A DNA stretch of 40,032 bases. Origin: Verrucomicrobiaceae bacterium (GTDB lineage Bacteria; Verrucomicrobiota; Verrucomicrobiia; Verrucomicrobiales; Verrucomicrobiaceae). The stretch is from the NCBI GenBank assembly GCA_027487315.1, contig JAIYDW010000075.1, positions 1-40,032 of the forward strand. Reading direction: 5' to 3'. The notes under the pieces are model-generated. The model had not been told where the DNA came from. It worked only from the letters and a program-made list of their open reading frames with translations, and searched no databases. The translations under genes and the position numbers were made by a program. This document shows, piece after piece, positions 6,067-31,349 of the stretch; position 1 is the stretch's first letter, and every line of letters starts with the position of its first letter.

Positions 6067-8757
6067 TTATTCTGAAGCGGAGCGCATGCGCTGGAAGGGG
6101 GCGCTTTCGGTGAGGGCGAGGATGAGGGTGCGGGTGCGCCAGGAGTCGGCTTCGGTGCGGCGGGTGATTTCGTCGAGGGCGGGGCGGTCGGAGTAGGTGG
6201 TGCCGCGGCCGAGGGCGTAGATGAGGAGGTTGTCGGCGAGATTGCGGACGAAGGGTTGGGCCATGTCACGGGTGAGGATGGCGCGGAGGTCGGTGAGGTT
6301 TTGAAAGGCTTGGCCGCGGACGAGGTGGCCGGAGGCGTCGATGGGTTTGCCGTTGTCTTCGGTGCGGAAGCGGCCGACGGGGTCGAAGTTTTCGAAGGCG
6401 AAGCCGACGGGATCGAGGAAGGCGTGGCAGCCGGCGCAGGAGGCTTTTTCGCGATGGGCGGCGAGTTGTTCACGGAGGGTGAGTTTTTGCTGGCGGCCTT
6501 TGCCTTCATCGATCGGGGGGACGCCCTCGGGTGCGGGTGGGGGTGGGGTGCCGAGGATGTTTTCGAGGAGGAATTTGCCGCGTTTGACGGGGGAAGTGCG
6601 GGTGGGGGTGGAGGTGATGGCGAGGACGCTGCCGTGGGTGAGGATGCCGCCGCGGGGAGTGCCTTGGAGCGCGACTTTTTGCAGTTTGTCGCCTTTGATG
6701 CCGGGGAGGTTGTAGTATTTGGCGAGGCGTTCGTTGGCGAAGGTGTAGTCGGCGTTGAGGAGGTCGAGGACGGGGAGGTTTTCTTTGATGAGGTTGGCGA
6801 AGAAGGTTTCGGTTTCGCGCCGGAGGTCAGACTGGACTTTGTAGAAGTCTTTGAAGCGGGAGTAGTCGGGGTTGAGGTTTTCGAGGTCGCGAAGTTGGAG
6901 CCACTGGCCGGTGAAGTTTTTGGTGAGGGCCTCGGCACGCCAGTCGGAGAGCATGCGGTCGATGGTGGCGGGGAGGTTGGAACGGAGTTCGGATTTGGCG
7001 GCGAGTTGGAGGAGTTTTTCGTCTGGAGGAGCGGACCAGAGGAAGTAGGATAGGCGGGAGGCGAGGGTGAATTCGTCGATGAGATGGGAGCCGTGGAGGT
7101 CGGGTCCAATGGGGTTGGGGGTGGGGTGGTAGAGGAAGCCTGGGGAGACGAGGAGGCCTTCGAGGAGGACCCGGAGAGTGCCGAGGGGGCTTTCACCGTT
7201 GGAGAGGGCGGCTGTGGCGAGTTGGGTCCAGCGTTGGGTTTCTTCTGGCGCGAGCGGGCGTCGGAAGAGGCGGGTGGCCATGCGGGTGGTGAGGGCGGGG
7301 ATGGAGGTGGGATCGAGAGAGGGATGGTCAAGGGGGCCTTCGATGCGGACTTGATGGAGCCAGAGGTTGCGGTCTTGCTTGGTGGCTTCGTCGTAGAAGT
7401 CGTTGAGGAACGAGAGTTCGAGGGGGGCGTCGGTGGACGTGGCGTCGAATTCGTGGTGGAACCACTGGGGTTGCTGGTTTTTGGCGGTGACATCGAAGGT
7501 GGCGAGGGTTTGGCCGTTCCACTTGGCGTCAAATTTGGCAGGATCGGTGCCGGCCTGCTGGGCGCCGGCTTTGATGCTGAGGCGGTAGCGGCCGGTGGTG
7601 GTGATTTTGAGGGGGTGGCGGGCGGTGCCTGATGAGGCGAGGAGGAGGGAGCCGGTGTCGGGGGCGCCGTCGCCGGAGATGAGGACGAGGTCTTCGCCGG
7701 TGAGCGACATGGAGGGCGTGCCGACGGGTTTGCCATCGAGGAGCCAGGCGAGGAAGCGGGTGGGTTTGGGGGATTGGAGCGAGGCGGGTTTGGTGAGGAC
7801 GGCGCGGCGCAGGGTGAGGTTTCGATCGGCTTGGGTGGCTTTGTCGTAGAAGTCGTTGGTGAAGGCGACAATGAGCTCGGTGTCGCCGGAAAGGGGCACT
7901 TCGAGGCGGATGATTTGCCATTGGGTGTCTTCGCCGCGATCTTCGGTTGTGATGTTGAAGGTGCCGAGGTCTTGTTTGCCAAGGCGGACATTCATTTTGG
8001 CGGGTTCGGGTCCGGCCTGACTGGCGGCGGCGTGGAGTTCCAGTTGATAGGTGCCTGGTGTGGTGGGTTTGAGATAAAAGGCGGCGCTGGATTCACTGGA
8101 GAAGTGGCGAGAGAAGCCTTCTTCGCCCGACTTCGATTGGTGATTGTAAAAGCGTTTGCCGTCGATTTTGAACTCGAGTGTTTCGGACTCTTGGAGGGTG
8201 GTGGCAGCTTCAGCCAGTTCGAACGCGGCACGGACGTACTTTTCCATGAGCATGGGCGAGATGGAAAGGACATCGCCGATGGTGTCGAAGCCGTAGCCGC
8301 TGTCGTCCGGGGGGAAGGCGTCGGCGGGGCGGGAGTCGAGGTGGAGGAGATCGCGGATGGTGTTGTTGTATTCGGCGCGGTTGAGGCGGCGGCGGGTGAC
8401 TTGGCCGGGGTCGGGTTTGGCGGGGTCCATCCAGAAGATGTTGTCGTCGATCCAGCGCACGATGTCGTCGCGCTGTTGGAGGGAGGGTTGGTCTTTGTTC
8501 TCCGGGGGCATCACATGGGTGGTGAGTTGCTGGCGGACGAGGTCCCAGAGGGGGAGGTCGGAGAGGAGGGCGTTGAGGTCTGTGGAGGCATCGAAGGCGA
8601 AGTCGCCTTTGTCGACGCCATCGGCGTGGCAGTCGAAACAGACCTGCTGGAGGATGGGGCGGATGCGCTGCTCGTAGTCGGCGGTTCCGCGGTGGGGTTC
8701 AGCGGCTAGGGCGGAGGCCAGGAGGAGAGGGATGACGATGAAGAGGGAGCGTGGCAT
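6067..8757 (-). CDS. DUF1592-type haem protein with duplicated carbohydrate-binding-like domains
   Basis: An 896-residue exported protein; the ATG at 8757 is chosen because it gives a clean signal peptide (residues 1-19, ending ALAA). An N-terminal cytochrome c motif CFDCH (40-44) is followed by DUF1587 (RRRLNRAEYNNTIRDLL, about 122-138). Two related modules follow at about 194-324 and 340-475. Each carries NDFYD (301-305; 452-456) and DRNL (311-314; 462-465) and resembles a Ca-dependent carbohydrate-binding fold. The DUF1595, DUF1592, DUF1588 (TSPVKRGKFLLENILG and a second haem-like CAGCHAFLDPVGFAFE) and DUF1585 parts complete the usual order. Planctomycetes and Verrucomicrobia carry many of these, often linked to polysaccharide use. 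Unlike most, it has no DUF1552 partner next to it. Confidence 0.88.
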   Translation of the reverse strand: MPRSLFIVIPLLLASALAAEPHRGTADYEQRIRPILQQVCFDCHADGVDKGDFAFDASTDLNALLSDLPLWDLVRQQLTTHVMPPENKDQPSLQQRDDIVRWIDDNIFWMDPAKPDPGQVTRRRLNRAEYNNTIRDLLHLDSRPADAFPPDDSGYGFDTIGDVLSISPMLMEKYVRAAFELAEAATTLQESETLEFKIDGKRFYNHQSKSGEEGFSRHFSSESSAAFYLKPTTPGTYQLELHAAASQAGPEPAKMNVRLGKQDLGTFNITTEDRGEDTQWQIIRLEVPLSGDTELIVAFTNDFYDKATQADRNLTLRRAVLTKPASLQSPKPTRFLAWLLDGKPVGTPSMSLTGEDLVLISGDGAPDTGSLLLASSGTARHPLKITTTGRYRLSIKAGAQQAGTDPAKFDAKWNGQTLATFDVTAKNQQPQWFHHEFDATSTDAPLELSFLNDFYDEATKQDRNLWLHQVRIEGPLDHPSLDPTSIPALTTRMATRLFRRPLAPEETQRWTQLATAALSNGESPLGTLRVLLEGLLVSPGFLYHPTPNPIGPDLHGSHLIDEFTLASRLSYFLWSAPPDEKLLQLAAKSELRSNLPATIDRMLSDWRAEALTKNFTGQWLQLRDLENLNPDYSRFKDFYKVQSDLRRETETFFANLIKENLPVLDLLNADYTFANERLAKYYNLPGIKGDKLQKVALQGTPRGGILTHGSVLAITSTPTRTSPVKRGKFLLENILGTPPPPAPEGVPPIDEGKGRQQKLTLREQLAAHREKASCAGCHAFLDPVGFAFENFDPVGRFRTEDNGKPIDASGHLVRGQAFQNLTDLRAILTRDMAQPFVRNLADNLLIYALGRGTTYSDRPALDEITRRTEADSWRTRTLILALTESAPFQRMRSASE

Positions 8758-8930
8758 TCGAGGGAAGTAAGGATACGTGAAGGTGCTGGATTTTTCGGTT
8801 TGGAATTCGGACTTTTTTGAAGGGAGACGGAAAGCAGATGGTGGAGGCGATGGATTTTTTTGACGGGCACCCCAAGAAGAAATGAATGGCAATCGTGGTG
8901 ATGTGGTCTGACAGTTGACTTCTTACTCCC

Positions 8931-11165: not shown

Positions 11166-11191
11166 GGGCTTGAGTTTGCATACGAATTTGG

Positions 11192-11220
11192 AAAGCGGGC
11201 TTCGGCCCGCTTTTTTGTTT
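11192..11220 (+). terminator. Intrinsic terminator of the rplU-rpmA operon
   Basis: A 9-bp stem (AAAGCGGGC / GCCCGCTTT) with a TTCG tetraloop runs into a T-tract. It lies 27 bases after the rpmA stop. This is the clearest factor-independent terminator in the window. Confidence 0.93.
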
Positions 11221-11385: not shown

Positions 11386-11775
11386 GTGACTCGACTTGCC
11401 CGGTTTACGATTGTTGCATTGCTGATGGTTTCCATTGGTGGGCAATGGATGTTGTTGCAGGGGGTGGCGTGGATGGGGATGGCGGTGAGTTATTCGATTG
11501 AGGAGGGATCGGTGTCGAGCGGGTTGAGCAAGACGTTTGATGGAGAGCATCCGTGTCCGCTGTGCAAGGCGGTCAAAAAAGCGAGTGATGAAGAGGGGGA
11601 TTCTTCGGTTCCGGGGCAGGGCGGGATGGGGAAGAAGAAGGTGGAGTTGTTTTCAGAGGGGGCGCTGACTTTGTTTGCGCCTGAGCCAGCGAGACTGGCA
11701 GTGGAGACCGATGGTGAAGAGGTCGTGGCGCGCCTGATTGCGCCTGATGTGCCGCCTCCGAAGGGGTGGGCTTGA
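11386..11775 (+). CDS. Small exported protein with a CPLC motif
   Basis: A 129-residue protein from a GTG start. Residues 5-28 form a hydrophobic signal or anchor (ARFTIVALLMVSIGGQ), and the rest should lie outside the cytoplasm. The only recognisable motif is HPCPLCKAV at about residues 55-63, a C-x-x-C pair next to a histidine that could bind metal or haem or form a disulfide. It resembles small DUF2946-like proteins found beside metal uptake genes, but I am not sure of this. The tail is Pro-rich (DVPPPKGWA). It opens the run of exported-protein genes that extends to 21891. Confidence 0.6.
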   Translation: MTRLARFTIVALLMVSIGGQWMLLQGVAWMGMAVSYSIEEGSVSSGLSKTFDGEHPCPLCKAVKKASDEEGDSSVPGQGGMGKKKVELFSEGALTLFAPEPARLAVETDGEEVVARLIAPDVPPPKGWA

Positions 11776-12059
11776 TTTGAGCTTGGCGTGTGACTGCGCC
11801 TGAGCGATGCAGACGGCGATCCGACGGGTGGCTCTTGTTTCACGGTATTCTCGCGTGCAGCGATGATGGGGTGACAGGAGCGGAGCGGAAACGAGATCGA
11901 TGATCCCTGAGGGGGGTCTGCTGGGTTGTTCAGGCGGGTTTTCGGGCTGAGCTCCGAACCTTTCCGGTACCCGATTCCATTGGGTCAGCAAGCCGGAAGC
12001 CGCCTTGTGCGGCCACCCGTCAGTCACGGTCTGGCTGACGGGTGAATCGACCAGTTGAG
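11776..12059 (+). promoter_or_regulatory. Long structured leader before the propeller/di-haem gene
   Basis: This 284-base gap is less G-skewed than its surroundings and rich in inverted repeats. CACCCGTCAG / CTGACGGGTG forms a perfect 10-bp stem (12014-12023 with 12035-12044) ending 15 bases before the ATG. Just upstream, GCCGC...GCGGC and TTCCGG...CCGGAA (around 11967-12012) could form nested helices. The region could be a cis-acting RNA controlling the next gene. I compared it by eye with cobalamin, TPP, SAM and c-di-GMP riboswitch consensus patterns and found no convincing match. A promoter is probably included but not identifiable. Confidence 0.35.
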
Positions 12060-15000
12060 ATGATTTGTGATGATATGAGATTGTTTATCCAACGTGTTTT
12101 TAGACGGGTGCGCCTTTTTGGCGAGGTGGGGTTGTGGGCTATGATGGTGCTTGGGGGGGGAGCGGTGCTGGGGCAGTCGGTGTATGAGGGATTTGAGGCG
12201 CGATTGACGCATCCGCTGGAGTTGACGCCGGATGGGGCGCGGCTGGTGGCGGTGCATGGTGAGGCGGGGTCGCTGAGTGTTTTCGATGTGACGGGGGCGG
12301 GGATGATGCCGGTGAAGGTGAGGGAAGTGCCGGTGGGGCTGGAGCCGGTGACGGTGCGGGCGCGGACGAGTGATGAGGTGTGGGTGGTGAATGAGGTGTC
12401 TGACACGGTGAGTGTGGTGTCGTTGGGCGCGGGGGCGGTGGTGGGGGTGGTGTCGGTTGGGGATGAGCCGGCGGATGTGGTGTTCGCGGGAGGGAAGGCG
12501 TTTGTGAGTTGCGCGCGTGACAATGAGGTGTGGGTTTTTGACGCGACGACGCGGGTTTTGCTGTCGCAGGTGGCGGTGGAGGGGCTGTATCCGCAGTCGT
12601 TGGCGGTGAGTGGTGACGGGAGCCAGGTGTTTGCGGTGTGTTTGCATTCTGGGAATGGGACGACGGTGCTGAAGCGGCAGGTGGCACCGCCGCAGCCGGG
12701 GCCGACGAATGTGGCGTTGCCAGCGGCTCCAGACACGGCGTTGATCGTGCCGGCGAGTGATTCGCGGGTGCCTTACACGGTTTTGGATCACGATGTGGCG
12801 GTGATCGATGTGGTAACGCATGCGGTGACGGGTTACCGGGGCGGGGTAGGGACGAATTTGCTGGGGGCGGCGATGCGGCCGGGGGTGGACGAGTTGTGGG
12901 TGAGCAATACGGAGGCGATGAACACGGTGCGGTTTGAGCCGGAGTTGAAGGGGAACTTTGCGCGGAATCGGCTGAGCGTGGTGAATGGACTGACGGGCGG
13001 GGTGACGGTGCATGATTTGAATCCGGGGGTGGACTATGAGGTGCTGCCGAATGTTGCGGCGCAGGCGGTGGCGCTGGCGCAGCCAACGGCGATGGTGTTT
13101 GAGGGGGATGGGGCGGCGCTGTGGGTGGCGGCGTTTGCGAGTGATCGGGTGGCGAAGGTGAATGCGTTGACGGGAGCGGTGATGACGCGGGTGGATGTGA
13201 GGCCGGCGGGAGGTGACAGCGGGGTGATGCGGGGGCCGCGGGGGCTGGCGTTGGATGAGGGGCGGGGTCGTTTGTATGTGCTGCACAAGCTGGCGGAGAA
13301 GGTGGGGGTGATTGATGTGAGCGGGGGGGTGCCGGAGCAGGTGGCGGAGGTGGATTTGAGCGGGCATGAGCCGCTGTCAGCGCAGGTGAAACATGGGCGG
13401 GGTTATTTGTATGATGCGCGGCTGAGTGGCAATGGGACGGTGTCTTGCGGAATTTGCCATTTGGATGCGGATCGGGACGGGTTGGCGTGGGATTTGGGGG
13501 ATCCGGGTGGGCCCATGCAGACGGTGCTGGGGGCGAACCGGTCGGCGCATGATTTCACGCTGCGACCGAGGACGCTGCACCCGATGAAGGGGCCGATGAC
13601 GACGCAGACGCTGAGGGGGATGCAGGATGGGGCGCCGTTTCACTGGCGTGGGGACAAGCCGGGGATCGAGGATTTTAACAGTACGTTTCCGAATTTGATG
13701 GGTGGGGAGTTGATTGATGAGGAGGATATGGAGGCGATGATCGCGTATTTGATGACGCTGAGGCATCATCCGAATCCGAATCGGAATTTGGATCGGAGTT
13801 TGCCTTCGAGTTTGGGGGGGAGGAGTCCGGTGGAGGGGTTGGCGCTGTTTAAGAACCATGTGAAAGGGCATTGTTTGGACTGCCATGTGTTGCCGACGGG
13901 ATCGGATAACAATTTGGATTTGATGGCGGAGTCGGGTTTGGAGCAGCCGGTGAAGACGCCGCCGCTGAGAACGGTGTATCAGCGGCTGTTTTTGGATCCG
14001 AGGCCAGGGGCGGAGTCGCTGAGTGGGTATGGGTTGCTGCACGATGGGACGGGATTTGAGATGCCGATCGGGCATCCGTATCCGCTGGCGAATTTGGATT
14101 TGGAAGAGCTCTACGATGTGGCGGCGTTCATGATGTGTTTTGACACGGGAGTGGGATTGATGGTGGGGCACACGCAGTGGGTGGATGCGGGGAATCGGGG
14201 ACAGACGGGTGTGGCGTCGAAGTTGGCGCTGATGGAGGCGAGGACGAGGGCGGTGCCGCCGGATTGTGATTTGGTGGTGAGAGGGAAGTGGGGAGGCGAG
14301 GCGAGGCGGTGGCTGTTTGATGGGGCGACGCAGACGTATCGGAGCGATCGTGAGGCGGACGCGCCGCGGAGTCGTGCGGACTTGTTGGCGGGGCTGGGAG
14401 CGGGAGACGGAGTGAGTTTCATGGGGGTGCTGCCCGGGCAGGGGGCGAGACTGGGGGGGGATGAGGATGGGGATAGCGTGTTGGATGGGGACGATCCGGA
14501 TGGACGGGTTTACAATGGGGTGCCGAAGATTGTGAAGCAGCCAGTGGACCGGGCGGTGCCGCCGGGGGGCACGCTGGTGTTGAGTGTGGATGCGGCGGGA
14601 GTGGATTTGGATTATGAATGGCGGCACAACGATCAACCGGTGCAGGGAGGGGATGGCGCGGTCTTGACGCGGACGGGGATGAGTTTGGAGGAAGCGGGGA
14701 ATTATGTGGTGGTGGTGACGAGTCCGATGGGCGTGGCGACGAGTCGAACGGCGAAGGTGGAGGTCTATCCCGCGCCAGGGATCACGGTGCAGCCAGTGGC
14801 GAGGAGGATTGTGCGAGGGCAGACGACTTCGCTGACGGTGACGGCAACCGGAGAAGGATTGAGTTATCAGTGGCGGCGAGGGAATCTGGCGGTGCAGGGG
14901 GCGACGAGTCGGACGCTATCATTTCCGAATGCGCAGGGGACGGATTCGGGGGATTACTCGGTGGTGGTGTCAAATGGAGCGGGGAGTGTGACGAGCGAAG

Positions 15001-16448
15001 TGGCGAGGTTGACGGTGGTGGTGCCACCGACCATGACGATGACGAGTTTGCCGGCGGCGATCGTGGGACAGCTTTACAGTGTGCCATTGACGGGGGCGCA
15101 GGAGCCGACGCGGTTTGTGATATCCGGTTTGCCCAGAGGGTTGGCGGTGGCGAAGAGCGGGATGGAGTTGGCAGGACGGGCGCAGCAGGCGGGTATTTTT
15201 CCGTTGAGAGTGCAGGGAAGCAATGCGGCAGGGACGAGCACTGCGGTGACGATCTTTTTGGAGGTGAAGCGATTTCCTGAGGGAGCGGAGGGAGTGTATG
15301 AGGGTGTGCTGCCGAGGCATGAGTCGCTGAATGGGAACCTGGGGGGATTTGTGCAGGTGACGACGTCACGGCTGGCAAGCTTTAGCGGAACCTTGCAGTT
15401 GGGGACGGTGGCGTATCCGTTACGAGGGACCTGGACGGCGTCGGATACGGAAGATCCGAGGGTGACACTGACGGTGAATCGGCGGGGTTTGGCGCCGTTG
15501 GAGGTGGTGTTGGGGATAGATCCGGACACGAGGATGCTGAGTGGAAAGGTGTCTTCGGAGGGACAAGAGGCGCTGGTGACGGGAGGCGGGGCGATGGTGG
15601 TGCCGGGTGTTTTGGCGGGGAACTACACGATGGCGATGCTGGTGCCTGAGAGTGAGGAGGGGGAGTCCGGGGTGCCGCAAGGGGATGGCGTGGGAGGCTT
15701 CACGGTGAGTTCCAAGGGGCTGGCGAAAGGAGTGCTGGTGCTGGCGGACGGATTGAGTTTCAGCTTTTCGGCACCGATGACTGAGGGAGGTAGGATTAGG
15801 GTTTTGAGGCGGCTGTATGAGGGGACGAAGACGGGGTCACTGCACGGGAGGCTGAGGGTGACGGGGACGGGAGGGCATCGTATGGAGGGGAGTGAATTGA
15901 GCTGGTGGAAGGGACCGCAAGTGAAGCGGACGCGAAGTTATGCGGGAGGGTTTGGTCCGTTGGAGATGCGGGTGAGAGGAGGGGCTTACGTGATCCCACA
16001 GCGAGGGGCGACGCTGCCGGGACTGGGGAGTGTTGAGGTCAAGTTTAGTGAGGGGGGGGCTCCGTCGCCGGAGACGCGGTTGGATGTGGCTGCTGCTACC
16101 CTTCCGGGGGCGCATCCGGCGAGGGTGGTAGTGGTTGGAGCGAATCCGGGTTTGGTGTCGATGACGGTGCAGCCTGGGAGCGGGACACGGTTTACGGCGG
16201 GGACGACGGGGACGACGGGATCGTTCGCGGGGAGCTTTTTGTTGGAGGATGTCGATATGACGCAGGCGAAGGCGCCGGTCTTGAAGCGGAAGGCGACGTT
16301 CAAGGGGATGGTGGTGGACGATGGGACGGGGGCGCGAGGGTATGGAGCTTTTTTATTGCCTGAGATGCCGGCGCTGACGCCGGTGATAACGACGCTGACG
16401 AGTTCACCGATCCGGTCCGGTCGGGTGCGAGTGAATGGGCTGCCGTAG
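12060..16448 (+). CDS. Secreted beta-propeller / di-haem cytochrome / Ig-domain protein
   Basis: About 1462 residues. The ATG at 12060 is used; an ATG at 12075 is equally possible, and both give a hydrophobic signal near residues 20-45. Residues about 50-440 form YVTN-type propeller repeats (VSVGDEPADVVFAGGKAFVS; ALDEGRGRLYVLHKLAEKVG). Two haem-attachment sites follow, CGICH (463-467) and CLDCH (605-609), in a region like MauG or cytochrome c peroxidase relatives. Two Ig-like domains (about 822-990), a putative-Ig domain and a C-terminal module (about 1074-1462) complete it. That module is shared with the next gene. It is likely periplasmic or surface-bound with a redox role; the substrate is unknown. 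Confidence 0.82.
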   Translation: MICDDMRLFIQRVFRRVRLFGEVGLWAMMVLGGGAVLGQSVYEGFEARLTHPLELTPDGARLVAVHGEAGSLSVFDVTGAGMMPVKVREVPVGLEPVTVRARTSDEVWVVNEVSDTVSVVSLGAGAVVGVVSVGDEPADVVFAGGKAFVSCARDNEVWVFDATTRVLLSQVAVEGLYPQSLAVSGDGSQVFAVCLHSGNGTTVLKRQVAPPQPGPTNVALPAAPDTALIVPASDSRVPYTVLDHDVAVIDVVTHAVTGYRGGVGTNLLGAAMRPGVDELWVSNTEAMNTVRFEPELKGNFARNRLSVVNGLTGGVTVHDLNPGVDYEVLPNVAAQAVALAQPTAMVFEGDGAALWVAAFASDRVAKVNALTGAVMTRVDVRPAGGDSGVMRGPRGLALDEGRGRLYVLHKLAEKVGVIDVSGGVPEQVAEVDLSGHEPLSAQVKHGRGYLYDARLSGNGTVSCGICHLDADRDGLAWDLGDPGGPMQTVLGANRSAHDFTLRPRTLHPMKGPMTTQTLRGMQDGAPFHWRGDKPGIEDFNSTFPNLMGGELIDEEDMEAMIAYLMTLRHHPNPNRNLDRSLPSSLGGRSPVEGLALFKNHVKGHCLDCHVLPTGSDNNLDLMAESGLEQPVKTPPLRTVYQRLFLDPRPGAESLSGYGLLHDGTGFEMPIGHPYPLANLDLEELYDVAAFMMCFDTGVGLMVGHTQWVDAGNRGQTGVASKLALMEARTRAVPPDCDLVVRGKWGGEARRWLFDGATQTYRSDREADAPRSRADLLAGLGAGDGVSFMGVLPGQGARLGGDEDGDSVLDGDDPDGRVYNGVPKIVKQPVDRAVPPGGTLVLSVDAAGVDLDYEWRHNDQPVQGGDGAVLTRTGMSLEEAGNYVVVVTSPMGVATSRTAKVEVYPAPGITVQPVARRIVRGQTTSLTVTATGEGLSYQWRRGNLAVQGATSRTLSFPNAQGTDSGDYSVVVSNGAGSVTSEVARLTVVVPPTMTMTSLPAAIVGQLYSVPLTGAQEPTRFVISGLPRGLAVAKSGMELAGRAQQAGIFPLRVQGSNAAGTSTAVTIFLEVKRFPEGAEGVYEGVLPRHESLNGNLGGFVQVTTSRLASFSGTLQLGTVAYPLRGTWTASDTEDPRVTLTVNRRGLAPLEVVLGIDPDTRMLSGKVSSEGQEALVTGGGAMVVPGVLAGNYTMAMLVPESEEGESGVPQGDGVGGFTVSSKGLAKGVLVLADGLSFSFSAPMTEGGRIRVLRRLYEGTKTGSLHGRLRVTGTGGHRMEGSELSWWKGPQVKRTRSYAGGFGPLEMRVRGGAYVIPQRGATLPGLGSVEVKFSEGGAPSPETRLDVAAATLPGAHPARVVVVGANPGLVSMTVQPGSGTRFTAGTTGTTGSFAGSFLLEDVDMTQAKAPVLKRKATFKGMVVDDGTGARGYGAFLLPEMPALTPVITTLTSSPIRSGRVRVNGLP

Positions 16449-16553
16449 GGCGAGACTTTGCTGACCCGAAAACCACACAACATAACACAACGAACGAGAA
16501 GATCTAACTTAGAAGCGTGGACGCAAGAAAGCGCGGTCGAACCTACTAACATC

Positions 16554-19500
16554 ATGAAACGAAAACACACATTGAGCTGGCTTCTGGCTGGCGTCATCGG
16601 AGGCATGGGAGTGATGAGCGCCCAGGCCCATATTGGATACACGAACCGGAACTTTGGGACGCTGGTGCCCGACGCGCCGCCGGTGACGATCACGAATCAG
16701 ACGGTCACAGGAAACTTTGGCTGGGCGGACGGGACGGACGAGAATTTTGCGGACAGTCATAAGCTGAGGGCATACCGGTTCACACTGGCGAATCCAGCTT
16801 ATGTGACGCTGACGTTCACGGCCTCGACCAACGGAGGGACGCGCAGTGGGGCGTTGAACCCGGGATTTTCGGTGTTCAAGGGATTGGCGAGGCAGGCACC
16901 TTATGTGACTGGTGGGAGTGCGGACCATGATGATGCGTTGATCACGCAAGCGTATCTGGCATCGCTATCGGGTCCGGCGAAACGGGGTGCGTTCCGGTCG
17001 CTTGTGGACTGGCGGATTGGTGGTGATGGTCAAACCGGGCCTGTGTTTGATTTTGAAGATGCTGCGAGTGGGCTGACGACCTTTCTGTTTCGAGGCTATG
17101 CCGTGGATGGTGATTCGACGCTGTTTGGTTCGGTGCCGGGGATTGTGGGGGATAACCAGGCTGACGGTATGGTGACGAGGGGAATGTATCTGGAGGCGGG
17201 CGACTACACCGTCTTCGTTGGGGGGGCGAACTATGCAGGGCAAGATCCTGAAGATACGACGGTGTACGGGGTGACGGCAAGATTGTCGGCATCGACCTAC
17301 ACTTACGTTGCGGGGGATCCTGCGGCGGGTGGCATTGGCTATCAGCATCAGGTGACCCTGGGGCGTAACAGCTCGGGTTCAGTGAGTGGACATGTGGGTG
17401 CCTGGAGCTGGGAGGACAACAGTCTTTTTGGCGGTTCGGGGCAGGGGACCGAGCCGGTGGGATGGACTCATACGTCGCACTGGGTGGCGTTGAAGATGGA
17501 GCGTCCGGCGGTCCTGACAGTGACGATGGTTCGAGATGCGAATGTGCCGTGGCCAAGCGAAGCTGAGCCCGATCGAAAGGCGGACATCTCATCCATGTTT
17601 CCGAGCCTGACGATTTGGAGCGGGTGGGACAATGATGGGGATGATCTGCATGAGTACAACAATCGTGGGAATGTCGACTGGGCGGAAGACATCAAGTATG
17701 TCGATCATGTGGACAATTCGACGGCTGAGACGATCACTCGGACGTGGTATCTGCCTGCTGGAGACTATACGATGGCTTTAGGCAGCAATGCTCCGGCGAC
17801 GAATTCTGCGAGGCAGGGTTACCGGGTGACGTTTGCGACGCAGACGCAGGCAGCGATTGATCCGGTGCGTGTGGTGGGTGGTGTGGGTTACAAGAATACC
17901 GTGGCATTGGCGGCTGGAGACAGTGGATCGTTGTCGAACCATGTGGGATCGTGGAGCTGGGAGGACAATGCGTTGTTTGCACCTGGGCAGCCGCCGGTGG
18001 GTTGGACTCACACGTCCCATTGGGTGGCGATGAATGTGGATCAAGATGACGTGTTTGTGACGGTGACGATTGACCGGGATGCGAATGTGCCGTGGCCGAG
18101 CGGGACGGAGCCGAATCGGAAGGCGGACACGAGCTCGATGTTCCCTTCGATGACGCTCTACCGGAACTGGGACAATGATGACGGTGACAGCCACACGTAT
18201 AACAATCGCGGCAACGTGGCGTGGGCCGAGGATTTGCGGTACCTGGATCATGTGGACAATTCGACAGCGACGAGTGTGACGCGGACGTGGAGGCTGCCGC
18301 GGGGTCAGTATTCGCTGGTGGTGGGGAGCAATGCGGCGGCGACGAATCCGGCGCGGCAAGGCTTCAAACTGAGCTATGCAGCGGTGGCGGCGACGGGTGC
18401 GGTGATGACGGGTGATCCGGCGCCGGGTGGAGTGGGCTACACGTGGGTGGTGACGGCGGGAGCCGGGCAGAGCGGTAGTGTGGCGAACCATGTGGGGGCT
18501 TGGAGTTGGGAAGACAACAGTCTGTTTGGCAATTCGGGTCAGGGGACGGAACCGGTGGGCTGGACGCACACTTCGAACTGGCTGGGTTTGAATGTGACCG
18601 AGCCTTTGACGTTCACGGTGACGATGAGTCGCAATGCGGATGTGTCGTGGCCTGCGGCACCGGTGGAGTTGAACGGTAAGGCGGACACCGAGTCGATGTT
18701 CCCGAGTCTGACGCTTTGGCGCGGCTGGCACAACAATGGCGCGGACAGTCACACGTACAACAATCGCGGAGCGGTCTCGTGGGCACAGGGTTTGAGTTAT
18801 CTGGATCATTTGGATAATTCCACATCGCCGACGGTGACGCGTTCATGGACGTTGCAACCGGGGCAGTATACCTTTGCGTTGGGGAGCAATGCGGCGGCGA
18901 CGGATTCTGACCGGCAGGGTTACACGTTTGCTTGGACGACGTCCGCGCCGACGTGGGAGGCAGCGCCTGTGATCACGCAACATCCGAAGCCGGTGATGGT
19001 GGTGGCAGGGAGAAGGTTCACAGTGGCTGCGAAGTTCACGGGTCCGGCGGGTACGCAGGCGCAGTGGATGCGGAATGGGCGGCCTGTCCCTGGGGCAACA
19101 GGGACGACACTATCGGTGCCGGTTTCGGATTTGGAGGATGCGGGAGCGTATCAACTGGAGGTGAGGACAGCGTCTTCGTGGGTCACGAGTCAGGCAGCGC
19201 AGGTGACGGTGCTGGTGCCGCCGGTGCTGGTGGATCCGCTGATGTTTGCCGGTGGGAGAATCGGGCAGCCGTATCTGTTCCAACTGCCAGCGGTGGCGGG
19301 AACGACTTATGTGTTCCGGGGGTTGCCTGGAGGGTTGCGGTATGACAGCCGGCTGGGGGTGATCTCTGGTTTGCCGCTGGTGTCGGGAGTGTTTCCGGTG
19401 TCGGTGACGATGGTGAATGCGGCCGGTAGAAGTGTGAGTGTGTCGAGTGATCTGACGATTCTGGCGATGCCGCAGGGATCGGTCGCCTCATTCAACGGCG

Positions 19501-20684
19501 CGTTGGCGCGGGAGACTGGGATCAACGACATGCTGGGCGGCTGTGTGACGGTGACGACTTCCTCGGTGGGAGTGTTCTCACTTCAGGTCAAGCTGGGAAC
19601 GCAGACACTGCGCCAGTCCGGTCGATTGGCGGAAGTCGGCGGAGGTGCGTCCGTTCAGATGTCGGGATCGGCTGTGCTGACACGCAGGGGTCGGTCGAGC
19701 CTGAGTGTGAGCTTTTCCTACTGGGATCAGTCGAAGGCGGTTCAGGGGACGATCTCGGATGGGACGGTGACGCTGCCGTTTGTTGCGAGGGGTCCACAGG
19801 ATGTGGCAGGTGTGGCGGCGTTTGTGGGAGACTACACGTTCGCGGGAGATCCGGGAGCCAGCGCGCCGGTGAGTGTGCCACAGGGCTTCTCAATCGGAGC
19901 GATGAAGGTGGACAGCACCGGCAATCTGGTGGGCGCGATGCGTCTGGCGGATGACACTCCGGTGACGTTTGGGGGGAGGCTGGAAAGCGGCGGGTTGGTG
20001 ACGATTTACAGCCCTCTTTATGTTGGGACGGGATCGTTGCTGGGAGTGCTTTCCATCCAAAGCGCGGCCGAGGGCAACTTACGCCTATCGGAGGTGAGTT
20101 GGCTCAAGAAAGCGCAGTCGTCCAGGTCGAGGGACCGGGTTTACAGGAGTGGATTTGGTCCGCTGAATCTGGAAGTGTTTGGCCGGAAGGTGAACGCGAC
20201 GGAGGTGCCGCTGGAGATGCTGAATCTGACGGAGAATGCGGCGGGGAACACCTCGCTGACATTCGATGGAGGCGGGGCACCCGATCCGGCGACGCGGTTG
20301 AATGTGGCGGATGTGTCGATCCCTGCGGGGCCGGTGGCACCGGCGGTGATGGTTTCATCCAACCCTGCGACCGTGAGTCTGACCGTGCTGCGGCCGGTGA
20401 CTGGCGGAGGTTCGGCGGGGAAAGCGACGTTCAAGGAGTTCACGGTCACGAAGCGGTCGGTGCGGCAGACTCAGGGCGCGAGCTTTGGGGAGTTCTCGCT
20501 GGTGGATATGGACTCGGGAATGACGCGGCGGCGCAAGGCGGCGATGTATGGCACGATTGTGGATGACGGCACGGGTCCGCAATTGGTGGGGTATTTCCTG
20601 CTGCCGGAGTTACCGGCGGTGGGGGCGCCTGCGAGTGCGGAAGCTTTGACGCCGATCCGGTCGGGCCGGTGGATGAGCGAGTGA
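16554..20684 (+). CDS. Giant exported protein with three tandem repeats and Ig-like domains
   Basis: 1376 residues from the ATG at 16554, with a signal peptide (MKRKHTLSWLLAGVIGGMGV, cleaved after AQA, leaving HIGYTN). An N-terminal domain (about 25-250) is followed by three homologous repeats of about 180 residues (252-439, 440-617, 618-799). An Ig-like domain (about 805-890), a putative-Ig domain (GLPGGLRYDSRLGVISGLP) and a C-terminal module (about 971-1376) follow. The repeats share WSWEDN, PVGWTHTS, the ADxxSMFPS element, YNNRG and LDHxDNST; these look Asp/Asn-rich and possibly Ca-binding. I recognise no enzyme. The gene lies 105 bases after the propeller/di-haem gene and is probably co-transcribed. 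Confidence 0.8.
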   Translation: MKRKHTLSWLLAGVIGGMGVMSAQAHIGYTNRNFGTLVPDAPPVTITNQTVTGNFGWADGTDENFADSHKLRAYRFTLANPAYVTLTFTASTNGGTRSGALNPGFSVFKGLARQAPYVTGGSADHDDALITQAYLASLSGPAKRGAFRSLVDWRIGGDGQTGPVFDFEDAASGLTTFLFRGYAVDGDSTLFGSVPGIVGDNQADGMVTRGMYLEAGDYTVFVGGANYAGQDPEDTTVYGVTARLSASTYTYVAGDPAAGGIGYQHQVTLGRNSSGSVSGHVGAWSWEDNSLFGGSGQGTEPVGWTHTSHWVALKMERPAVLTVTMVRDANVPWPSEAEPDRKADISSMFPSLTIWSGWDNDGDDLHEYNNRGNVDWAEDIKYVDHVDNSTAETITRTWYLPAGDYTMALGSNAPATNSARQGYRVTFATQTQAAIDPVRVVGGVGYKNTVALAAGDSGSLSNHVGSWSWEDNALFAPGQPPVGWTHTSHWVAMNVDQDDVFVTVTIDRDANVPWPSGTEPNRKADTSSMFPSMTLYRNWDNDDGDSHTYNNRGNVAWAEDLRYLDHVDNSTATSVTRTWRLPRGQYSLVVGSNAAATNPARQGFKLSYAAVAATGAVMTGDPAPGGVGYTWVVTAGAGQSGSVANHVGAWSWEDNSLFGNSGQGTEPVGWTHTSNWLGLNVTEPLTFTVTMSRNADVSWPAAPVELNGKADTESMFPSLTLWRGWHNNGADSHTYNNRGAVSWAQGLSYLDHLDNSTSPTVTRSWTLQPGQYTFALGSNAAATDSDRQGYTFAWTTSAPTWEAAPVITQHPKPVMVVAGRRFTVAAKFTGPAGTQAQWMRNGRPVPGATGTTLSVPVSDLEDAGAYQLEVRTASSWVTSQAAQVTVLVPPVLVDPLMFAGGRIGQPYLFQLPAVAGTTYVFRGLPGGLRYDSRLGVISGLPLVSGVFPVSVTMVNAAGRSVSVSSDLTILAMPQGSVASFNGALARETGINDMLGGCVTVTTSSVGVFSLQVKLGTQTLRQSGRLAEVGGGASVQMSGSAVLTRRGRSSLSVSFSYWDQSKAVQGTISDGTVTLPFVARGPQDVAGVAAFVGDYTFAGDPGASAPVSVPQGFSIGAMKVDSTGNLVGAMRLADDTPVTFGGRLESGGLVTIYSPLYVGTGSLLGVLSIQSAAEGNLRLSEVSWLKKAQSSRSRDRVYRSGFGPLNLEVFGRKVNATEVPLEMLNLTENAAGNTSLTFDGGGAPDPATRLNVADVSIPAGPVAPAVMVSSNPATVSLTVLRPVTGGGSAGKATFKEFTVTKRSVRQTQGASFGEFSLVDMDSGMTRRRKAAMYGTIVDDGTGPQLVGYFLLPELPAVGAPASAEALTPIRSGRWMSE
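17307..18950 (+). repeat. Three tandem in-gene repeats of about 540-560 bases
   Basis: Units start at 17307, 17871 and 18405. Each encodes the same succession: GxGY, NHVGxWSWEDN, PVGWTHTSxW, a D/N-A-N/D-V-x-WP stretch, SMFPSxTxxxxW, a YNNRG segment, a D-H-x-DNST segment and a final PAGxYxxxLGSNAxAT. Unit 2 lacks the short GSGQGTE segment present in units 1 and 3. The DNA of units 1 and 3 is still visibly similar over long stretches, so the duplication is fairly recent or maintained by exchange. The protein's N-terminal domain ends in a related GDYTVFVGG segment and may be a diverged fourth copy. Confidence 0.85.
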
Positions 20685-20709
20685 GAGAAAAGGATGGTTG
20701 AGTAGCAAG

Positions 20710-20738
20710 GGCAGCGTCGGGAAGCTCCTGGCGCTGCC
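20710..20738 (+). terminator. Possible hairpin after the tandem-repeat gene
   Basis: GGCAGCG (20710-20716) and CGCTGCC (20732-20738) form a 7-bp stem with a 15-base loop, 26 bases after the stop, followed by ATTTTG. The T-run is short, so termination would be weak or partial. It might attenuate rather than separate the downstream beta-barrel gene. Confidence 0.35.
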
Positions 20739-20835
20739 ATTTTGCCCAGCCTTCCTCATGAAATTCTGAATTGAGCGAGAGCGATGATCGCGTTGCCAAA
20801 GTGGGTTTGGAGTTTCATGAAGGAGGCGAGGCAGT

Positions 20836-21891
20836 TTGCGAGCGAGCAATGAAATGAGACGAGTCACAAGAGTATTCCGAATGGGAAGGTTGGCGCTGGG
20901 GTGCCTGCTGGTGACGGGCATGGGTGAGATGGCGCAAGCGCATCACGGGCTGGATTTCTTGCTGGTGCAGGATGCGTTTGTGCCTGTTGCAGGGAAGGGG
21001 GTGGTCTATGGAGGGTTTGACTGGACGAGAGATGGAGGAGCGGAGGGCTACAAGAGCGAATCGGGGGTGATGCTGGGATTGCTGCCTGGACTGGCGTTTG
21101 GAGTGGGGATGGAGACGGCGGATGTGGGGGAAGGGTGGCAGGTGTATGGGATCGCGCCGTATTTGCAGGTGCAGTTGCTGCCGAAGGAATGGAGCAAGCG
21201 GGTGCGGCTGGCGTTGAGGGTGGGGTATGAAATCAGTGTGAATCCGTATGGGTACACGACCTTGGAGGCAGTGACGCGAACGGAGACGATTCAGCAGAAG
21301 GAGGTGGTGATGGTGGCGGCGCCGGTGGTGGCAGCGCCAGCCGCGGGGGGCGGGGGAACGGGGGGTGGAGGGGGGCCGGATGGCGGTGGCGGGCCAGATG
21401 GGGGGGGCGGGCCGGACGCGATGAGCCAGGCGCGGAGTGTGCGGCCGCGTCATGCAGGGCATGGGCATGGACTGAGCGGGGTGCAGGGGGGCGTGAGTCA
21501 GCGGGTTCGGACGACGAGCACGACGCGGGAGATCACGACGTATGAGGCGGTGCGGCGGGAGCAGCGGGTGGAGGGGTTGAGTGCCCGTTTGATGCTGGAG
21601 GCGGATTTGACGGGGGCGGACCGGGTGGTGCTGAACCTGGTGCATTTTAATGATCGGGCGCAGGGACCGGCCTGGGGGTATGCGGCGGGGTTACGGCATG
21701 CGTTTCATCACGACGTGGCGATGAGTGTGGAGGCGTTGGGGAATTTCAATCAGGAGAATTGGCATCAGGCGGTGGTCGCTGCGCATTATGCGCCGGTGCA
21801 TTGGGGATTGATCAAGTTGGGCGCGGCGTTTGGGTTGACGAGTGAGACACCGGATTTTTCGCTGATTGCTGGGTTTGTGGTGCGTTTTTGA
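20836..21891 (+). CDS. Outer-membrane beta-barrel-like protein with a Gly/His-rich insert
   Basis: 351 residues from a TTG at 20836, chosen because AGGAGG (20821-20826) lies 9 bases before it; an in-frame ATG at 20854 is the alternative. The signal peptide ends AQA (about residue 35), leaving HHGLDFLLVQD. Alternating strands (VYGGFDWTRDGG; APYLQVQLLP; VRLALRVGYEISV) and a C-terminal phenylalanine (FSLIAGFVVRF) fit an outer-membrane barrel recognised by the BAM machinery. Residues 171-194 are Gly/Pro/Asp repeats and 205-212 read RHAGHGHG, probably a surface loop able to bind metal. It is the last of the 11386-21891 exported set; its cargo or partner is unknown. Confidence 0.7.
   Translation: MRASNEMRRVTRVFRMGRLALGCLLVTGMGEMAQAHHGLDFLLVQDAFVPVAGKGVVYGGFDWTRDGGAEGYKSESGVMLGLLPGLAFGVGMETADVGEGWQVYGIAPYLQVQLLPKEWSKRVRLALRVGYEISVNPYGYTTLEAVTRTETIQQKEVVMVAAPVVAAPAAGGGGTGGGGGPDGGGGPDGGGGPDAMSQARSVRPRHAGHGHGLSGVQGGVSQRVRTTSTTREITTYEAVRREQRVEGLSARLMLEADLTGADRVVLNLVHFNDRAQGPAWGYAAGLRHAFHHDVAMSVEALGNFNQENWHQAVVAAHYAPVHWGLIKLGAAFGLTSETPDFSLIAGFVVRF
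21361..21418 (+). repeat. 18-base coding microrepeat (Gly-Gly-Gly-Gly-Pro-Asp)
   Basis: Three consecutive units of about 18 bases encode GGGGPD, preceded by a looser GGGGTGG stretch, inside the beta-barrel gene. The third-base pattern varies between units (GGC, GGT, GGG), so they are not perfect DNA copies. Such tracts can expand or contract, changing loop length. Confidence 0.75.
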
Positions 21892-27939: not shown

Positions 27940-29322
27940 TTAGAGTTTGGCGATCATTTCGGTGATTTGTTTGGTAGCAATGCCGAGGGGGCGGTCGACT
28001 GGAACACCCGCACAGGCGAGCAAAGTGGTGAGCAAGTCGCCTTGATTGCCGCTTGTATTTGGCAGGAAGCGTCCGGTGTTGATGGAGCCGCCGCCTTTAC
28101 CGGCTATGATGAAGGGGAGATTTGACCGGGTGTGTTTGTTGCCGTCTTCGAGGCCTGAACCCCACATCATGATGCAGTTGTCTAGCAAGGTGCCGTCGCC
28201 TTCACGGAGGCTGTGCATTTTTTTCACCATGTAGGCGAACTGAGAGATATTGAAGGCGGTGATGGCAGCGACTTTCTGAACTTTCTCCGACTGGTTGTTG
28301 TGATGGGTTTGCGAATGATGCTCGTCTTTGAATCCGAGTTCCGGATACGACACGCCATTGGGAGTGGAGCCAATGTAGGTGCTGACACGGGTTGTGTCGG
28401 TTTGAAATGCCAGGACGTTGAGATCGCACATGATCTGCATGTATTCGCTGCGTTTGTCACCCTCGGGGATCTTGATCTCAATCGGAGGCGAATCTGAGGC
28501 ATTGCGTTTGCTTGGAGCGAGGCCCGCCTTCTCTAGAGCAGCTTCTTTTTGCCGATACTCGATGGCGGCGATCCGGCGCTCGACGGCGCGGACACTGTCG
28601 AGATATTCGTCGAGTTTGTGTTGATCATTTTGAGGGAGTCTTCGACGAAGGTCTTTCGCTCCGCCGATGACCAGATCGAGCATTTGGCGATCTAGCGGAT
28701 CGGTTTGGGAGGTGGATCCGGTTTGGCCGGACTTGCCGAAGAGACGATTGAGCACACTGCGGGGGTTGGTTTCTGCAGGGAGGGCTTGGGTGGGCGAGCG
28801 GAAACTGCAGTGCGAGTAGTAGCCTTCATTGAGGCCCTCCTGATTCTCTTTGTGCGTCTGTGGCATGGTGGCCAGTTCGAGCGACGGCAAGGAGGTGAGG
28901 GCGCCAATGTAGTTGGCGGCGATTTGATCCGCTGAGATGGAAATGTTGATTCGGTTGCGTGAATCCGCGTCCGGTAGCTGAGCGGTGAGCCAGGTGGAGA
29001 GTTCGAGCGCGTGGGGGGCACCGTTGAAGGGAGCGATTGGCACACCGGAGATGCCTTTCATGAGGAGGCACTGGTTGAGGACGGGGCGCAGGGATTCGAG
29101 GGCTGGCGGTGGGGACGACAGGAAGGTCTCCGGGCTGGCAGGCCAGAACTGATCCATGATGACCCCATGAGGCATGTACATGAATCCGAGGCGAACGGGA
29201 GCTTTGAATGGCTTGCCCTTCACGACTTCTGACCAACCCATGGTTTCCAGCAGGGGCAGGGCGAGGGAGGCACCGATGCCTTTGAGGCAGGTGCGGCGAT
29301 CGATGAGGTGGTTGCTTCTCAT
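27940..29322 (-). CDS. DUF1552 protein, Tat-exported partner of the DUF1592 cytochrome
   Basis: A 460-residue protein with a twin-arginine-type signal ([20 protein letters not shown]). DUF1552 features follow: [18 protein letters not shown] near the start, [11 protein letters not shown], and near the end [20 protein letters not shown], then [19 protein letters not shown]. The fold is related to alkaline-phosphatase/sulfatase-like DUF1501 proteins, but no activity is established. Its ATG overlaps the stop of the preceding DUF1592 gene (29319-29322), so the two are made together, as is usual for this pair. The haem protein probably supplies electrons, or the pair acts on a polymer; this is inference. 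Confidence 0.9.
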
Positions 29323-31256
29323 GGGCTTGTCTCTTGAGTGCGGTGATTGAGGAAGGGATAGCTGGTGATCACTTCGGTGATCAGGGTCTGAATGCGGTAG
29401 TCTTCTTTGGCTATGGTTTCCATGAGGCGATCGACCACGATTTCATCATAGCCTTCGAGTTGGCGGCAGAGGGCGTAGGCCATTAGTTTCTCGGTGAGAT
29501 TGCGTGCCAGCTCGTCTTTGCGGGCGGCAATGATGACTTTCAACTCCTTTGGAGTGGAGAAGTGCTTGTTCCCTGGGAGTTCACCCGCGGCGTCGATGGC
29601 GCCACCGGATTCGTCTTGATCGCGCCAGCGACCGATGGCGTCGAAGTTTTCCAGGCCGAAGCCGATGGGGTCGAGGATTTTATGGCAGTTGGCGCAGACG
29701 GCATCTGTGCGGTGAAGTTCGGTGCGTTGACGGAGGGTGAGATTGGCGACGGATTTTTGGTTCTGTTTTTCGAGGGTGGGGACGTTGGGCGGGGCGGGAG
29801 GGACGTGGTCGCCGAGGACTTGTTCGAGGACCCAGACGCCGCGTTTGACGGGGCTGGTTCGGTTAGGGAAGGAGGTGGTAGCGAGGATGCCGGGCATGGT
29901 CAAGATGCCACCGCGATTGGTGTTCTGGAGTTTCACCTTGCGCATCTCCGGGCCGGTGATGGTTTGTTCCACATCATAAAGGGCTGCTAGGGTTTCGTTG
30001 AGAAAGGTGTAGTCACTTTCGACGAAACTGACAACGCTGCGATTCTCCCTTACCAGGCTGTCAAAGAACAGTCTGGCTTCGTCATACATGGATGTGCGCA
30101 TGTCGTTGGTCATCAGGGGGAACTTGGCTGTGTCGAAGGTTTTGGAGCTGAGGGTGTCCAAGCCGAGCCACTGGGCCCCGAAGCCATCGAATAGAGCGCG
30201 AGATTTGGCATCTTGGAGGAGGCGCTTGACTTGTGATTTGAGGATGGCGGGTTCATGGAGTTTGCCGTTGTCAGCGAGAGCTGTGAGTTCGGCATCAGGC
30301 ATGGTTGCCCAGAGGAGATAGGACAAGCGCGAGGCGAGTTGGTAGTCATCGAGCGGGACAATCGATTGACCTTCAGTGGCTTGTTTGGCGGGGGTGATGA
30401 AGAGAAATTGGGGGGAGACTAGGATGGCCTTGAGTACTAAGAAGAGAGAGTCTGTGTATGAGAGTTTGTTGGTTTGCGCGAGAGCGAAGACGTCCATGAG
30501 GACGTTCAGTTCGGTGTCTGATGGCGGTCGACGGTAGGCGTTCCGTGCGAGGTTATGGGCGACTTTTTTGGCGGCGGCATGGAGGTCAGTTCCGGGTGCC
30601 GGGGCTTCGCCCAAAAGGCGTTTTTGGGTTGAGGTGGACGATGGGTTTTTGGCAGATCGAATCTGATCGATGACTTCGTTGGCGATGCTGAGATACTGTT
30701 CTGATTGGAGAGGTGAGAGGGTGTTCAAGTAGCCCTCGCCGAAGACTTCATCGGGCAATTCGGCGGCTATGGCGGGATCGACGCCGAAGAGATCGCGCAG
30801 GGTATTGCCGTATTCGGTCTTGGTCAGGCGACGGATGACAAACGGACCTGGGTCTTTGGGGCTGAGAAATTTGAGGGTTCCGATCAGGTCGAGGAATTTT
30901 TGCCGCTCTTCCTCTGAAGGTTGATTGTCCGCGTCTTCGGGCGGCATGTCGTGGGCCTTCACATTGGCCAGAGCTTGCTTCCAGTGCCTGCGGGAGGTGG
31001 AATCGCCGGGGTTTTTGAGGGCGCCGAGGTAGTTGAGGCCGGCCTTTCTTCGTTTGTCGTTGTGACACTCCGCGCAGTAGGTTTTGACGAAGGGGGTCAC
31101 GCCCTCAATGAAGGCTTTTTTGGGGTCTGCGATTTTTGAGTTGGAACTGTTTGGGGTTGGGGTCTGGGAGTGGGCAAATGGGATCTGTGAAAGCAGGGCC
31201 ATCCAGAAGATCAGGAGGGTTGAGCTGAGAGGAGTGGTGGATGAGGTTCGACGCAT
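29319..31256 (-). CDS. DUF1592-type haem protein of the DUF1592-DUF1552 operon
   Basis: 645 residues from the ATG at 31256, giving a signal peptide ([20 protein letters not shown], ending AHSQ). An N-terminal CAECH haem site (61-65) is followed by DUF1587 ([18 protein letters not shown]), DUF1595, DUF1592, DUF1588 ([18 protein letters not shown], then [18 protein letters not shown]) and DUF1585 ([15 protein letters not shown]). It lacks the carbohydrate-binding-like insert seen in the homologue at 6067-8757, so it represents the basic architecture. An upstream TTG at 31289 is possible but gives a less regular signal. It overlaps the DUF1552 start by four bases. Confidence 0.92.
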
Positions 31257-31349
31257 CTGCAAAGGGGCCAATAGGCTACGATGGATCAACCTGGTCTCTA
31301 TCCGAATAGAGCCCTGTTTGGCGTAAAAGGGATGCGTTGAATTTATGCC

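Follow-up and report, generated by a model that had tools for sequence, protein, structure and literature searches.

A four-gene cassette of Verrucomicrobia with CorA/MopE-type copper(I) domains, proposed to serve copper acquisition

Organization of the locus

The window considered here is the whole 40,032-nucleotide stretch of contig JAIYDW010000075.1 from a Verrucomicrobiaceae bacterium (assembly GCA_027487315.1, completeness 98.7%). Between rplU-rpmA and glmS, it harbors on the + strand a run of four genes (11386-21891), all encoding exported products (Table 1), and separated by gaps of 284, 105 and 151 bases when starts are placed at 12060, 16554 and 20836. Ahead of the cluster, the ribosomal genes end in an intrinsic terminator, which sets them apart from it; no strong terminator was found between genes 1 and 4, and sigma-70-like promoter matches around the cluster occur at chance level only. 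Planctomycete-type PSCyt/PSD cytochrome gene sets are present on both sides on the - strand (6067-8892 and 27940-31289), the second one also with a DUF1552 HXXSHH gene.

The first-pass annotation had described four + strand genes with these same gaps, as a small CPLC protein, a propeller/di-haem/Ig protein, a tandem-repeat/Ig protein and a barrel-like protein. The coordinates of the open reading frames (ORFs) confirm this arrangement, as well as the first product, a 129-residue ORF with HPCPLC; family scans agree for gene 2 (propeller, CCP_MauG-like and Ig domains) and for gene 3, and the AlphaFold2 model of gene 4 shows 14 long strands, with outer-membrane barrels as its best PDB matches. The tandem repeats of gene 3 are thus present as described, but their identity as CorA/MopE copper(I)-type domains had been missed.

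Table 1. Coordinates of the genes, domains and RNA features of the four-gene run
Feature	Position	Strand	Remarks
Intrinsic terminator	11190..11215	+	11-pair stem plus T run, 3' of rplU-rpmA
Gene 1	11386..11775	+	exported, 129 aa, HPCPLC, C-terminal PPPK
CPLC codons, gene 1 residues 57-60	11554..11565	+	C57 and C60 invariant (alignment A7)
PPP codons, gene 1 residues 123-125	11752..11760	+	four residues ahead of stop; P124 and P125 invariant, P123 nearly so (A7)
Structured leader, three hairpins	11957..12044	+	last hairpin 12014-12044, 13 pairs, 15 nt 5' of gene 2 ATG
Gene 2	12060..16448 (alternative start 12042)	+	exported; beta-propeller, di-haem domain of MauG/peroxidase type, two Ig domains, C-terminal module
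Di-haem domain, gene 2	13329..14321	+	CGICH 13446-13460, CLDCH 13872-13886
Gene 3	16554..20684 (alternative start 16458)	+	exported; N-terminal related domain, three CorA/MopE domains, Ig/He_PIG, C-terminal module
CorA domain 1	17301..17855	+	W 17463, H 17469, H 17649, plus H 17706
CorA domain 2	17844..18398	+	W 18003, H 18009, H 18192, plus H 18249
CorA domain 3	18399..18959	+	W 18561, H 18567, H 18750, plus H 18807
Gene 4	20850..21891 (alternative start 20836)	+	predicted outer-membrane beta-barrel; mature N-terminus HHGLDF; unstructured Gly/His loop

CorA/MopE-type domains in gene 3

Gene 3 belongs to the CorA/MopE family by profile, fold and ligand triad. Scanned as a whole protein with hmmscan, it matches Pfam PF18252 (copper(I)-binding protein CorA-like) over three stretches at 35.8 bits (cut-off 27, E 8e-9), each single domain staying under this cut-off when scanned one by one. 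The profile of an alignment of 32 domains, taken from the window and 11 relatives (A3), retrieves among all PDB sequences MopE (2vov, E 9e-4) and CorA (4bz4, E 0.011) as its top and sole credible relatives. In this comparison, the GWTH motif of gene 3 is aligned with W130-T-H132 of MopE and W62-T-H64 of CorA, and DSHTY falls on the CorA stretch containing H114, which corresponds to H117 of A3. The published copper ligands of CorA and MopE lie at these positions, the Trp being oxidized to kynurenine (PMC3912023, PMC3423442), so that the alignment equates the ligand positions of gene 3 with known copper ligands and designates W336, W516 and W702 (numbered on the ORF starting at 16458) as candidate kynurenine residues.

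Structure prediction leads to the same family: the AlphaFold2 model built on A3 (pLDDT 85) matches CorA at rank 1 (Z 12.2, rmsd 2.7, 140 aligned residues) and MopE at rank 2 (Z 11.4, rmsd 5.4, 151 aligned residues). Unrelated beta sandwiches also match at Z about 10, and the model is least certain at residues 45-57, the loop bearing W55 and H57. The Trp, the His two residues further on and the distal His are kept in 32/32 domains of A3. In a wider set of 117 domains from several phyla, they are found respectively in 81/85, 81/85 and 79/85 of the verrucomicrobial domains, and in 32/32, 32/32 and 28/32 of those from other phyla, with a third His (H136) nearly fixed in Verrucomicrobia only. Judging from this conservation, gene 3 would bind copper and form kynurenine. 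The gene 3 repeats cluster largely by position across genera, which suggests that the three-domain array is probably older than those genera.

The remainder of the protein is composite. Its N-terminal domain (16629-17290) has a CorA-like outline with an Asp (DSH) in place of the kynurenine Trp, and the mature protein would begin with a His (HIGYTN). An Ig and C-terminal module is common to genes 2 (14523-16445) and 3 (18963-20681), is also found in tens of other long open frames, both in this genome and in related ones, and is possibly a sorting or attachment module. A second unit occurs at locus L024 (3418-6738, - strand), where a CPLC gene of its own is followed by a 900 aa protein that has in common with gene 3 only the N-terminal domain, together with Calx-beta and Ig domains.

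A predicted outer-membrane barrel

No usable sequence family was found for gene 4 in Pfam or NCBIfam. Its AlphaFold2 model (pLDDT 77) is a 14-strand barrel closest in the PDB to FapF (Z 22.1) and a COG4313 channel (Z 21.5), with KdgM also among the matches and the copper transporter PcoB lower in the list (Z 13.8). Across 24 homologues (alignment A4), an HHGxDF motif immediately follows the apparent signal peptide and is nearly invariant, two members having DHG instead, most members carry a variable His-rich loop, and the proteins end in RF or KF. As a prediction, the assignment to outer-membrane barrels is solid. Many different cargoes pass through barrels of this size; copper as the cargo of gene 4 is inferred, as is the direction of its transport.

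Synteny and distribution of the cassette

Across Verrucomicrobiales, homologues of the four genes are almost always found together rather than mostly apart. On the named genome contigs, gene 1 lies upstream of gene 2 in 28/28 cases, gene 2 upstream of the CorA gene in 32/32 and gene 4 downstream of it in 26/29, and the grouping therefore exceeds chance; the order of genes 1, 2 and 3 is the same in 13/13 relatives with a CorA protein. Among 57 related genomes, CorA and a strong gene 2 orthologue occur together in 14, CorA never alone, and gene 2 alone once, as a fragment at a contig end (p 2e-12 for co-occurrence, kinship ignored); one further genome yields a 216-residue fragment match. In a sample of the phylum, the cassette was detected in 5/387 genomes, always in the same order.

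Cassettes vary in their content. Insertions between genes 1 and 2 encode SCO1/SenC (8/28), an HMA/CopZ-like protein (9/28) or cytochrome c (8/28), and the window genome has two SCO1 genes outside the cluster. In their simplest form, the cassettes encode only one CorA domain, which bears a PEP-CTERM-like tail, and their gene 2 is devoid of Ig domains. At L064, L067 and L085, two separate CorA genes stand in a row and gene 4 was not detected; at least one of the second copies, that of L064, has no W-x-H motif. CorA genes of this cassette type are also present in L049, L051, L058, L063 and L065, records titled Akkermansia muciniphila MAG, and these titles may be automatic assignments. The cassette is carried as well by Haloferula sp. 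BvORR071 (L066), probably an isolate since its genome record is not marked as a MAG.

The CorA scan also gave matches in Nitrosomonas, Nitrospira, Methylococcales and a single deltaproteobacterial MAG. Most of these non-verrucomicrobial contigs encode a CxxCH di-haem protein of about 480-700 aa, often directly downstream of CorA, and the partners scanned are of the CCP_MauG kind; none of genes 1, 2 and 4 was found at the CorA loci of other phyla. Several Nitrospira contigs (L070, L078, L081, L086, L089, L090) contain two or more CorA genes per locus, some of these loci also having one or two di-haem genes. CorA and MopE have been named in work on methane and ammonia oxidizers (PMC3912023, PMC3621798, PMC6189053), and within an open-access literature library, no version that is verrucomicrobial, multi-domain or linked to a barrel was found to have been reported.

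A probable copper-sensing leader

Gene 1 retrieved nothing usable from Pfam or NCBIfam, including no match to PF11162 (DUF2946) at E 1. Its homologues share two features at a distance from each other: a CxxC of the (FDGEH)PCPLC type and a Pro-Pro at most 18 residues from the C-terminus are both present in 34/34, with PPP in 31, and the last Pro-Pro lies within nine residues of the end in 33 of 34. The linker between them is variable in sequence with a length of 59-69 residues, and the C-terminal PxxPPP, which sits a few residues ahead of the stop, hardly varies. A Pro-Pro near the C-terminus was found in only 21/194 ORFs of the same loci, some of which are gene 1 itself.

Such an anatomy recalls two leader proteins of copper operons: CruR, in which a CxxC and a C-terminal RAPP control a copper operon via translation arrest and Rho (PMC9426467), the arrest having later been shown in vitro (PMC12992588), and CutF, a copper leader protein of similar anatomy (PMC9973294). 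By this analogy, gene 1 is probably a copper-sensing leader. As a DUF2946 protein it was rejected, a search of its own genome matching only another place (E 0.35); the same search in genomes with CorA in other phyla gave one weak match, and no convincing CruR-like ORF was found at their CorA loci. A C>G bubble, indicative of a Rho site, ranked at a median of 36% of background over 31 loci, and none stands out.

The intergenic leader RNA ahead of gene 2 shows an unusual degree of structure (z -3.4). Its three-hairpin form occurs in four loci, which belong to the genus of the window and to two further lineages (L044, L046). A terminal hairpin, 11-13 pairs long, recurs in 12 loci, with arms that differ yet stay complementary. 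Since z for the recurring hairpins amounts to just about -1 to -4 against best-of-window controls, this recurrence is considered supportive, not proof. No Rfam match was obtained in the leader; it contains the sequence word TGGGTCAGCAA, which was rejected as a repeated genome element (6 matches, and 3 in a reversed control).

Alternatively, gene 1 could be a working periplasmic copper chaperone or a small anchor protein. CxxC is a common copper ligand, and both the unmatched DUF2946 and a CxxC-Pro-Pro spacing unlike that of CruR would suit such a protein. A variable linker followed by a nearly invariant extreme C-terminus is, however, not what this explanation would favor, nor is a gene always placed ahead of gene 2, with a structured leader behind it in many loci, and we regard it as somewhat unlikely.

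The di-haem partner and a proposed origin of kynurenine

The profile of the di-haem domain of gene 2 (alignment A5) finds its nearest solved relatives in the gamma subunit of hydrazine synthase (HZS; 5e-10) and in the di-heme enzyme 6e1c, known as MbnH (1e-6), followed by bacterial cytochrome c peroxidases. In profile scans, gene 2 fits none of the named equivalogs: it was rejected as MbnH (TIGR04039, 18.4 bits for a cut-off of 362.85), as hydrazine synthase beta-gamma (NF052342, 60.2 bits for a cut-off of 1250) and, on profile scores, as MauG. Membership of the CorB/SACCP subfamily was also rejected, as A5 compared with the di-haem proteins adjoining CorA in other phyla (alignment A6) gives a probability of 47.6 over 34 columns around the first CxxCH only, and the proteins differ in length and haem spacing. 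Because the two di-haem families align only round this first motif, the copper domain is common to the lineages while the proposed maturase differs from one to the other.

CorB and SACCP were earlier proposed as kynurenine makers (PMC3912023), and gene 2 is probably the enzyme that converts Trp to kynurenine in gene 3. Since CorB and gene 2 are not orthologous, this role is argued from linkage and superfamily chemistry, and the linkage to CorA holds for the orthologous group only, since distant gene 2 relatives (L101-L104; propeller and two CxxCH, 1061-2450 aa) have no CorA beside them. These distant relatives could have other targets.

It could instead be that gene 2 is a respiratory or peroxidase enzyme that travels with gene 3, whose Trp would be oxidized spontaneously or left unchanged. 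A di-haem knock-out of Methylomicrobium alcaliphilum still grew, and its authors considered a possible non-enzymatic oxidation (PMC3912023); that gene 2 is no CorB orthologue points the same way. Against this stand the strict pairing of gene 2 with CorA (32/32) and the presence, in other phyla, of a different di-haem protein as the partner of CorA, which make a non-maturase gene 2 unlikely in our judgment.

Proposed function

Taken together, the four genes are best read, with reasonable confidence, as a copper-acquisition operon, a variant of the CorA-CorB/MopE-SACCP systems in a genome where no AMO or pMMO match was found. The first-pass annotation had suggested a cell-surface redox or metal-handling system, a view that gains support from the CorA/MopE domains of gene 3, the SCO1/SenC and HMA/CopZ-like insertions in relatives and the predicted gene 4 barrel, and that is here narrowed to copper.

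In the proposed mechanism, gene 1 would be translated first, as an exported leader in which the CxxC detects copper; the expression of genes 2-4 would be set jointly by the hairpin leader and by a stall at the Pro-Pro near the C-terminus, these genes being made when copper is scarce. Gene 2 would then oxidize three Trp of gene 3 (in GWTH) to kynurenine, thereby maturing it, and at each site the kynurenine, the His two residues on and the distal His would hold Cu(I). The resulting collector, lying either outside the cell or in the periplasm, could hold as many as three Cu(I), and gene 4 would pass copper, or the cargo of gene 3, across the outer membrane, helped by its His-His N-terminus and His-rich loop.

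The same parts could also serve copper protection, with gene 3 scavenging toxic surface Cu(I), gene 2 acting as a peroxidase against peroxide and gene 4 as an efflux-side barrel. PcoB, which the gene 4 model also resembles, is a copper-resistance protein, and SCO1 and HMA genes are found in uptake and resistance sets alike. CorA and MopE are, however, copper-repressed (PMC3912023), which fits acquisition, and no copper efflux pump was matched among the neighbor genes scanned, a subset of all those at the loci; protection is judged quite unlikely. Ordinary adhesion or biofilm surface proteins with a CorA-like fold and other ligands are very improbable, for while tens of other exported proteins encoded by the genome also have the Ig and C-terminal modules and the CorA-like model resembles other beta sandwiches, the copper ligand positions are kept across phyla and copper chaperone genes occur in the cassette.

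A wider reading may be advanced tentatively, as one that has somewhat less going for it than against it: a complete copper-uptake module outside methane and ammonia oxidizers, comprising a copper collector with several kynurenine sites, a propeller-di-haem enzyme of a new subfamily dedicated to its maturation from Trp to Kyn, a barrel class of its own with the His-His motif, and a new arrest-leader family (CxxC...PPPR) with a conserved hairpin RNA. The cassette represents a separate lineage, whose linkage to another kind of di-haem partner is fixed, and bears on which enzyme makes the kynurenine of CorA/MopE; it suggests that the kynurenine copper site can occur apart from pMMO/AMO, and brings two further components into CorA-type systems, an outer-membrane partner and a leader likely to sense copper. 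The single-domain forms of gene 3, such as those from L059 and L066, suit biochemistry, and the maturase question is directly testable by co-expression.

Comparison with known systems

The closest systems are CorA-CorB of Methylomicrobium album BG8 and MopE-SACCP of Methylococcus capsulatus, which share with the cassette the copper(I) domain family, its fold and the W-x-H plus distal His, as well as the pairing of a surface or exported protein with a di-haem gene of the CCP/MauG superfamily. The cassette differs from them by three tandem domains in gene 3, with Ig and C-terminal modules, by a di-haem partner that is a propeller fusion of another subfamily, and by the addition of an outer-membrane barrel and a CxxC leader in a genome without detectable pMMO/AMO. 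MbnP-MbnH (TIGR04052/TIGR04039) likewise pairs a copper-related exported protein with a di-haem enzyme, for which Trp-to-Kyn chemistry has been proposed, whereas gene 3 does not match the MbnP model and gene 2 is far under the MbnH cut-off. Hydrazine synthase beta-gamma has the same succession of propeller and di-haem domain, and its gamma subunit is the nearest solved structure by sequence, but gene 2 scores far below the family cut-off (60 vs 1250 bits).

As for regulation, gene 1 resembles CruR (Bordetella pertussis) and CutF (Rhodobacter capsulatus) in being a small exported first gene with a CxxC/CxxxC and a C-terminal proline motif, followed by an intergenic leader and a copper operon downstream. 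Its family differs from them in the CxxC-to-PP spacing (59-69, not 45), in having mostly PPP followed by R/K/Q/E rather than RAPP, and in its lack of a DUF2946 match and of a detected C>G bubble. Given the unmatched DUF2946, the different spacing and the unsupported bubble, we propose by analogy that gene 1 works like CruR and CutF, not that it is one of them, and membership of DUF2946 is not claimed. Lastly, the modeled gene 4 is of the same fold class as FapF, the COG4313 channel and PcoB, all outer-membrane barrels; it differs from them by the absence of a sequence family match, and by a conserved HHGxDF N-terminus and a GPDA/His-rich loop that are peculiar to it.
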